Shown here piece by piece: positions 36,193 through 48,240 of a DNA stretch of 64,000 nucleotides; positions within the stretch are counted from its first letter, which is position 1, and every line of letters starts with the position of its first letter. The stretch is taken from positions 62,001-126,000 of the forward strand of contig NZ_ML974129.1 in assembly GCF_004765815.2 (NCBI RefSeq). Direction: 5' to 3'. A program made the translations under genes and the position numbers. The notes beneath the pieces were generated by a model. It saw only the letters and a list, made by a program, of their open reading frames with translations, had not been told where the DNA came from and ran no database searches. Source of the stretch: Halorussus salinus (GTDB lineage: Archaea > Halobacteriota > Halobacteria > Halobacteriales > Haladaptataceae).

Positions 36193-36320
36193 TTAGAAAG
36201 CCCCCGCCCGCTCGCGGTCGCTCGGCGACATCTCCGCCGCTCCCTGCGGTCGCTCCGGAGAGGGGTCGCCGAGACGACCACGGCCTCCGGCCGCGAGCGG
36301 GCGGCCCCTTTATCCACCCC
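36193..36320 (+). repeat. Structured intergenic element, copy A (long interrupted hairpin)
   Basis: About 128 nt opening TTAGAAAGCCCCCGCC and closing GGCGGCCCCTTT with a TCCACCC tail. The outer stem is 14 bp, perfect (36204-36217 with 36291-36304). Inside it are a 9-bp stem (36221-36229 with 36265-36273), a 6-bp stem (36231-36236 with 36256-36261) and a 4-bp apical stem. The same outline with different stem bases recurs at 47975-48105. It contains no ORF of interest and is either an RNA element or a small mobile repeat. Confidence 0.8.
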
Positions 36321-36327
36321 GTCGGTT

Positions 36328-36365
36328 GCGTCGCCGAGCGTCTGTCGCGTCGCCGAGCGTCTGTC
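36328..36365. repeat. 19-bp exact tandem duplication
   Basis: GCGTCGCCGAGCGTCTGTC occurs twice back to back (36328-36346 and 36347-36365), directly after the structured element copy A. It is too short for a coding role and may mark local slippage. The remainder of the gap to 36509 shows no feature that I can support. Confidence 0.7.
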
Positions 36366-36509
36366 GGTGGTTCGTCGCGGGGAGTGCGCTCCTCGTCCGC
36401 CCCAACCTCCTGCGGTCCTCGTCCCTCGCGCAGATGGGGGCGACGACCGCGAGCGTCGCGGCAGTATCGCTTTTCACCGACGACGTTGGGTTCCGGGGTG
36501 GTGAGACCG

Positions 36510-47974: not shown

Positions 47975-48105
47975 TTAGAAAGCCCCCGCCGAGTCGCGGT
48001 CGCTCCGCCGGATATTCCGCGCGCAGAACTGCGCGCGGAATAGGGCCGCCGGAGGCGACCACGGGCCTTCGACCCGCGACTCGGCGGCCCCTTTCAGTCC
48101 ACCCA
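47975..48105 (+). repeat. Structured intergenic element, copy B
   Basis: About 131 nt with the same opening (TTAGAAAGCCCCCGCC) and close (GGCGGCCCCTTT, TCCACCC) as the copy at 36193-36320. The outer 14-bp stem is perfect (47986-47999 with 48074-48087) but differs from copy A at three adjacent base pairs, all compensated on both arms. A distinct 13-bp apical stem, TATTCCGCGCGCA/TGCGCGCGGAATA (48013-48025 with 48030-48042), carries a GAAC loop. It lies between the HTH regulator and paaA. Confidence 0.8.
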
Positions 48106-48118
48106 GACGTGGCGGTCG

Positions 48119-48240
48119 GTCGGCCGGGCGTTCGCGGTGGTTCGGTGGGTACTCGCGCTATCGTTCGACGGTCGGCCGGGCGTCGGCGGCGTGTCGGCCG
48201 GGCGGTCATACGAGAAACTTGTTCGGCTGGCTATTTAAAC
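48119..48240 (+). promoter_or_regulatory. paaA promoter with three GTCGGCCGGGCG repeats
   Basis: GTCGGCCGGGCG occurs at 48119-48130, 48171-48182 and 48193-48204, the last two 22 bp apart (two helical turns). A clear TATA box TATTTAAAC (48232-48240) follows. Transcription would begin near 48262, about 33 nt before paaA. The repeats are candidate activator sites upstream of the core promoter. Confidence 0.6.

Follow-up and report, generated by a model that had tools for sequence, protein, structure and literature searches.

A family of haloarchaeal DNA hairpin repeats, undescribed in the open-access papers that we searched, is represented by two copies in the stretch of Halorussus salinus DNA analyzed here (64,000 nt, "the window") and by some 50 in the genome as a whole. 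We think it probable that the family is a dispersed, non-coding, non-autonomous repeat of the REP/BIME-, MITE- or SMR-like kind, most likely acting as folded DNA.

An earlier note on this DNA had described two elements of about 130 nt, 11.8 kb apart, with common borders. The border TTAGAAAGCCCCCGCC is indeed found at two places in the window and no more, 36193 and 47975 (11,782 nt apart), although the part common to all copies of the family begins with (R)GAAAG rather than TTAG. The hairpin core of copy A spans 36195-36322 (covariance-model match G000:C3:98195-98322, 109 bits, E = 1.4e-23; 126-position model), and that of copy B 47977-48105 (G000:C3:109977-110105, 99 bits, E = 4.8e-21); these cores and the parts of the two copies given below are on the plus strand. 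Each folds as a single long hairpin, with free energies of -78.0 kcal/mol (z -6.3) for copy A and -82.4 kcal/mol (z -7.3) for copy B, and in neither case was any of 200 shuffled sequences as stable. The perfect 14-bp stem that the note had seen in both copies, with three adjacent pairs that differ and are all matched on the opposite arm, was found again in sequence and fold. Its 5' and 3' arms are CCGCCCGCTCGCGG (36204-36217) and CCGCGAGCGGGCGG (36291-36304) in copy A, and CCGCCGAGTCGCGG (47986-47999) and CCGCGACTCGGCGG (48074-48087) in copy B. The nested inner stems of copy A were also confirmed.

Two parts can be added to this description. Outside the 14-bp stem lies a basal stem of AAAG and CTTT, separated from it by a symmetric CCC/CCC mismatch, and on its 3' side the element runs on into degenerate direct repeats of about 19-29 nt. 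In copy A the AAAG at 36197-36200, near-invariant among 88 distinct copies, pairs with CTTT at 36308-36311, and the CCC at 36201-36203 faces the CCC at 36305-36307. The 3' end of this copy, CTTTATCCACCC (36308-36319), comprises the basal stem and a conserved tail, and is followed by 2.5 direct repeats of 19 nt at 36320-36366 (...GCGTCGCCGAGCGTCTGTC), detected by TRF and a repeat search. Copy B has an apical perfect inverted repeat, TATTCCGCGCGCAG..CTGCGCGCGGAATA (48013-48042), with 14-nt arms that are 100% complementary, a 3' end, CTTTCAGTCCACCCA (48091-48105), that follows the family consensus, and direct repeats in 29-nt units at 48117-48197. Copy A lies 3' of a phenylacetate-CoA-ligase-like gene (with AMP-binding domains) and 5' of a flavodoxin gene, and copy B is located between divergent genes. 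A second dispersed repeat, CCTCCCCAACC(G/T)CCTGCGGTCCTCG followed by TCCCTCGCGC..., shares the spacer of copy A, at 36397-36421. It has 35 occurrences in the genome at up to 3 mismatches (the window site and 34 others), and related sequence was also seen 3' of several other cores (L022, L027, L036 and L085).

The consensus core is about 126 nt long (126 model positions). From the outside inward it consists of the AAAG/CTTT basal stem, the CCC/CCC mismatch, a stem of 13-14 bp, a junction that may carry a small hairpin, a bulge of one base in the 3' arm, a sequence-variable stem, an asymmetric loop in which an A faces GNG(G), and an apical hairpin, of which there are several unrelated types. The core finishes with CTTTCAGTCCACCC or CTTTATCCCACCC, and its ends form prominent inverted terminal repeats (AAAGCCCCCGCC / GGCGGCCCCTTT). 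The bases preceding AAAG are mostly TCG or TAG, with GTAG in a minority only, and the 5' flank is purine-rich and weakly conserved over about 35 nt. The downstream repeats have the same orientation as the core, with a period of 27 nt in the clearest array. Of the 13 occurrences of the repeat motif GGTNNNNNGTGTCACCGAGCG in the host genome, 12 directly follow a core and share its strand, and we therefore regard these repeats as part of the element. At the hairpin base, the 3x3 C/C mismatch is invariant: the 5' side reads GCCC in 137/137 copies and the 3' side CCC in 136/137, and the unpaired A is retained in at least 125/137.

An exact 18-mer from the family, AAAGCCCCCGCCCGCTCG, occurs 22 times in the host genome, and its reversed control not at all. 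Further copies were sought in haloarchaeal genomes with a covariance model derived from an alignment of 20, and were found with their pairing preserved. There were 51 strong copies in the host genome, distributed over contigs C1 to C6, and in other Halorussus genomes about 100 in H. caseinilyticus (G002), 6-7 in G005, 1 in G013 and 0 in G008. These large gaps between close species make their cause searchable by comparative genomics. Across the order, matches with E <= 1e-9 were obtained in 115 of 392 sampled Halobacteriales genomes, representing 40 of 95 genera, in a search with a strict filter that scored few candidates per genome. In a set of 84,980 species genomes, an exact core pattern of 23 bases matched 62 stretches, every one of them haloarchaeal. 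Phage records contained no copy, nor did 2.9 million viral contigs searched with the exact pattern, and a viral or phage origin was therefore rejected. Within the host genome the copies have a mean pairwise identity of 74.5% (maximum 95%), with no local clustering of similar copies; because the copies are thus old, recent movement in this genome is not evident. On Haloarcula plasmids, single cores were seen about 490 nt upstream of a gene for a SOSS-B-like single-strand-binding protein, beside a second inverted repeat (L140, 2500-2617, pNG500; L141, 2500-2613, pHH126). A function in replication through this neighbor was considered and set aside, since the two cores may represent one inherited plasmid locus.

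Genes were called from codon usage, with the window as training set. All 49 mapped copies were intergenic, with 12 in convergent, 33 in tandem and 4 in divergent spacers. Orientation to transcription was unbiased, the copies in tandem spacers being sense in 15 cases and antisense in 18. Twenty-seven of the 49 follow a same-strand stop codon, mostly by 48-123 nt (full range 48-297, median about 79). These positions, mostly outside divergent spacers, together with a hairpin that folds from either strand, are what would be expected of a bidirectional transcription terminator or a stabilizer of mRNA 3' ends. However, the hairpin is followed by a run of just three Ts, neither function needs an invariant C/C mismatch or a sequence conserved across families, and most orthologous spacers in relatives lack a copy, so that we rate this explanation as extremely improbable. 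Close pairs of copies (within about 300 nt) are all arranged tail-to-tail (L063, L074, L076, L077, L190, L205, L224 and L235), some of the second members being weak matches.

Presence of the element at a given site varies between species, as seen in a comparison of eight orthologous loci in up to six relatives. The site of L039 was empty in 5/5 relatives examined, and those of L029 and L023 in several; at the L029 site, G005 has a remnant lacking the hairpin interior. The copy B site is filled in G009, G002 and, in interrupted form, G005, and is empty in G013. The outer helix at this site reads GCCGAGTCGCG in the host, whereas G009 has GCACGCTCGCG and G002 has GCCGGGTCGCG; all three have a matching 3' arm, and the interior is nearly identical. 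A target duplication was not clearly present at L039, L029 or L023, where divergence of the flanks blurs the junctions. In H. caseinilyticus, three identical cores with different 5' flanks are found inside 7 kb.

One of the two most surprising features of the family is that its strong covariation carries no signature of an RNA. Pairing was observed in 98.4% of cells, and double changes in 22 pairs (258 cells); none of 500 shuffles reached this covariation, and sliding abolished it. Among 137 distinct copies, after exclusion of three positions that align poorly or are unpaired in part, the departures from pairing comprised 22 G-U, 25 A-C and 38 other cells, i.e., 85 one-sided changes versus 354 compensated double changes. 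Selection on an RNA would be expected to tolerate G-U over A-C on the transcribed strand, as was seen in a control treated identically, SRP RNA from 18 Halorussus genomes, in which 12% of all pairs were G-U and the departures amounted to 38 G-U, 7 A-C and 54 double changes. The model to which the element alignments had been fitted favors G-U, and this bias opposes the result obtained. Thus, the arms seem to be kept complementary as DNA and not as RNA.

These results bear on whether the family is a structured RNA, either non-coding or cis-regulatory (riboswitch-like, an sRNA or a component of an RNA-guided system), as its stable fold, strong covariation and deeply conserved skeleton might suggest. 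Against this are not only the lack of G-U enrichment over the SRP control but also the equal frequency of both orientations to transcription, the absence of a TATA-like motif from the aligned 5' flanks (judged by eye), the lack of any Rfam match in the window (relaxed thresholds gave one chance miRNA match of 20 bits) and the fact that the roughly 100 copies in one genome adjoin unrelated genes. We consider an RNA function very improbable. The earlier suggestion of an RNA or DNA-cruciform element under selection, or a small mobile repeat family, therefore stands as regards a repeat family (about 50 dispersed copies, empty orthologous sites, and 0 to about 100 copies within a genus) and structured DNA (hundreds of compensated changes), but not as regards RNA. 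There is also a caution here for RNA discovery: DNA hairpins can yield textbook covariation, and a count of G-U versus A-C quickly separates the two.

Could a mutational process, namely arm-templated correction of quasi-palindromes together with gene conversion among copies, by itself keep the arms complementary in the absence of any selection? The arms do change together with no wobble intermediates, several adjacent pairs change together at a single orthologous site, and identical cores occur in different flanks. However, such correction alone should erase both the C/C mismatch and the unpaired A, yet both are kept. Arm-templated correction accounts for the concerted change of the arms, but not for these two features, and as a complete explanation it is improbable. 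The invariant mismatch and the retained unpaired A suggest that a specific folded DNA is recognized.

How might a folded DNA of this kind be used? The folded form would be either a single strand exposed in replication or an extruded cruciform. Recognition would be by shape together with fixed motifs at the ends and bulge, i.e., the mismatch base (AAAGCCC / CCCTTT) and the loop with A versus GNG(G). A candidate trans-acting enzyme would then have copied or moved the element into spacers adjoining the 3' ends of genes. The arms would stay complementary for two reasons: only copies able to fold would continue in use, and one arm can serve as the template for its partner. We infer that the element was moved by a trans-acting enzyme acting on DNA hairpins, and that the family is, or formerly was, mobile and not merely domesticated. 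A more specific version, in which an enzyme other than a Y1 HUH transposase moves or copies a folded single-stranded hairpin whose arms evolve in concert while the C/C mismatch clamp stays invariant, is speculative and on present evidence rather doubtful. If true, it would represent an archaeal system of structure-recognized DNA recombination.

Set against mobility is the copy B site, whose sharing by several species is expected equally of a retained functional element. The hairpin or cruciform might be a domesticated element of chromosome structure that binds a host DNA protein (a topoisomerase, nucleoid protein or recombination protein) and is selected site by site, as proposed for bacterial BIMEs. 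An ancient skeleton common to many haloarchaeal families, the pairing still present in old copies, the outer helices that differ yet pair at the copy B site where it is occupied (G009, G005 and G002), and the scarcity of copies in divergent spacers (4/49) are all consistent with this. Domestication would not predict congeners with 1 or 0 copies, the turnover of sites between close species, or the distribution in H. caseinilyticus, where the spacing of copies looks random (CV 1.1) and the strands show no clear bias (40+ / 37-). We regard domestication as unlikely, although it retains an appreciable chance of being correct. The same distribution disposed of regular spacing or a replication-strand bias, neither of which was seen in H. 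caseinilyticus.

Returning to mobility, the abundance of the family with no recognized mobilizing enzyme is surprising. Judged by eye from their proteins, neighboring copies have no gene in common. The Y1 transposase domain PF01797 is absent from G001, G002, G003, G009, G010 and G016, which have 32 to about 100 copies, and is present in low number in others; because it does not track copy number, mobilization by a RAYT/IS200 enzyme was rejected. TnpB (PF07282) was present in all genomes, the copy-free G008 among them, but its counts do not track copy number either, and none of 12 TnpB loci inspected contained a core, so a relation to IS605 TnpB and its omega-RNA was also rejected. A composite transposon with cores as its ends was discarded because the genes enclosed by divergent pairs are not the same from pair to pair and resemble those of the host. 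The neighbors of close copy pairs were likewise ordinary host genes in appearance, and no autonomous transposon partner was found among the genes near copies.

The family resembles known repeats in behavior but fails the defining features of each. REP/BIME/REPIN elements are high-copy, intergenic palindromes forming imperfect hairpins, with close copies inverted and a proposed action as single-stranded DNA hairpins (PMC2817692, PMC6006769, PMC3733652). The present family is likewise extragenic (49/49) and abundant (51 and about 100 copies), with close copies in inverted, tail-to-tail pairs. However, a REP is 20-40 bp long and has a GTAG/GGAG or CGTC foot (PMC3733652, PMC6006769), whereas the core described here measures about 126 nt, is followed by 3' repeats, has a C/C mismatch at its base, and shows GTAG before AAAG only in a minority. 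The Y1 transposases found in Archaea were of the IS200 subclass only (PMC6006769), and Y1 (RAYT/TnpA_REP) genes are absent from copy-rich congeners of the present host. REP/BIME-type elements have been described mainly from bacteria and are tied to Y1 transposases; a comparable but larger, structurally elaborate family in the Halobacteriales, where several copy-rich genomes lack Y1, suggests another route by which palindromes are spread or kept.

Among haloarchaeal repeats, SMR-A of Haloquadratum walsbyi (HqIRS42, 43 and 55) is about 110 bp, has inverted ends unlike those of known transposons, generates no target duplication, reaches 54 copies and has no known mobilizing enzyme (PMC3119063). 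The present family is similar in its haloarchaeal hosts, length, inverted terminal repeats and copy number, and here too no mobilizing enzyme was found. SMR-A copies are, however, >95% identical within a type and insert into the near-terminal palindromes of PATE/IS605 elements (PMC3119063), whereas the copies described here, compared with SMR-A by description, have a mean identity of 74.5%, and the 12 TnpB loci lacked a core. PATEs and the ends of IS200/IS605 elements are also haloarchaeal, palindromic and non-coding, with no target duplication; near each terminus PATEs carry short palindromes, and some PATEs originated from IS605 (PMC3119063). The present core differs in being wholly one hairpin with terminal inverted ends, and its copy number does not track TnpA or TnpB. 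A further parallel, by analogy only, is with the attC sites of integrons. These are folded single-strand hairpins with extrahelical bases, in which stem sequence varies and pairing is kept, but they occur in cassette arrays next to IntI. Copies of the present family are dispersed singly or as inverted pairs, and no array was seen.

Several variants of the core were also observed. In short forms the two ends and the basal stem are retained but the interior is missing, apparently by internal deletion; examples are L099, 1509-1565 (G000:C1:1295608-1295664), and several matches of 55-74 nt in H. caseinilyticus. Upstream of some cores, the 5' flank and left arm (..GAACGCTTAGAAAGCCCCCGCCCGCTCG) are tandemly duplicated, as if the left part alone had been copied (L142, Halorussus salilacus plasmid NZ_CP099994.1, 2400-2510, and the upstream flanks of L089 and L050). 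Finally, in three genomes an inverted-repeat insert of about 76 nt (CCGGAAGACGGTCCTGCTCGC..GCGGGCTGCGACTTCCGAGGTCACRCTCGCTTCGCTCGCGTGACC) lies within a core arm (L005, G000:C1:659043-659118; L101; L108). Partial copies of this insert are present elsewhere in the host genome, and its position recalls the insertion of SMR-type elements into palindromes.
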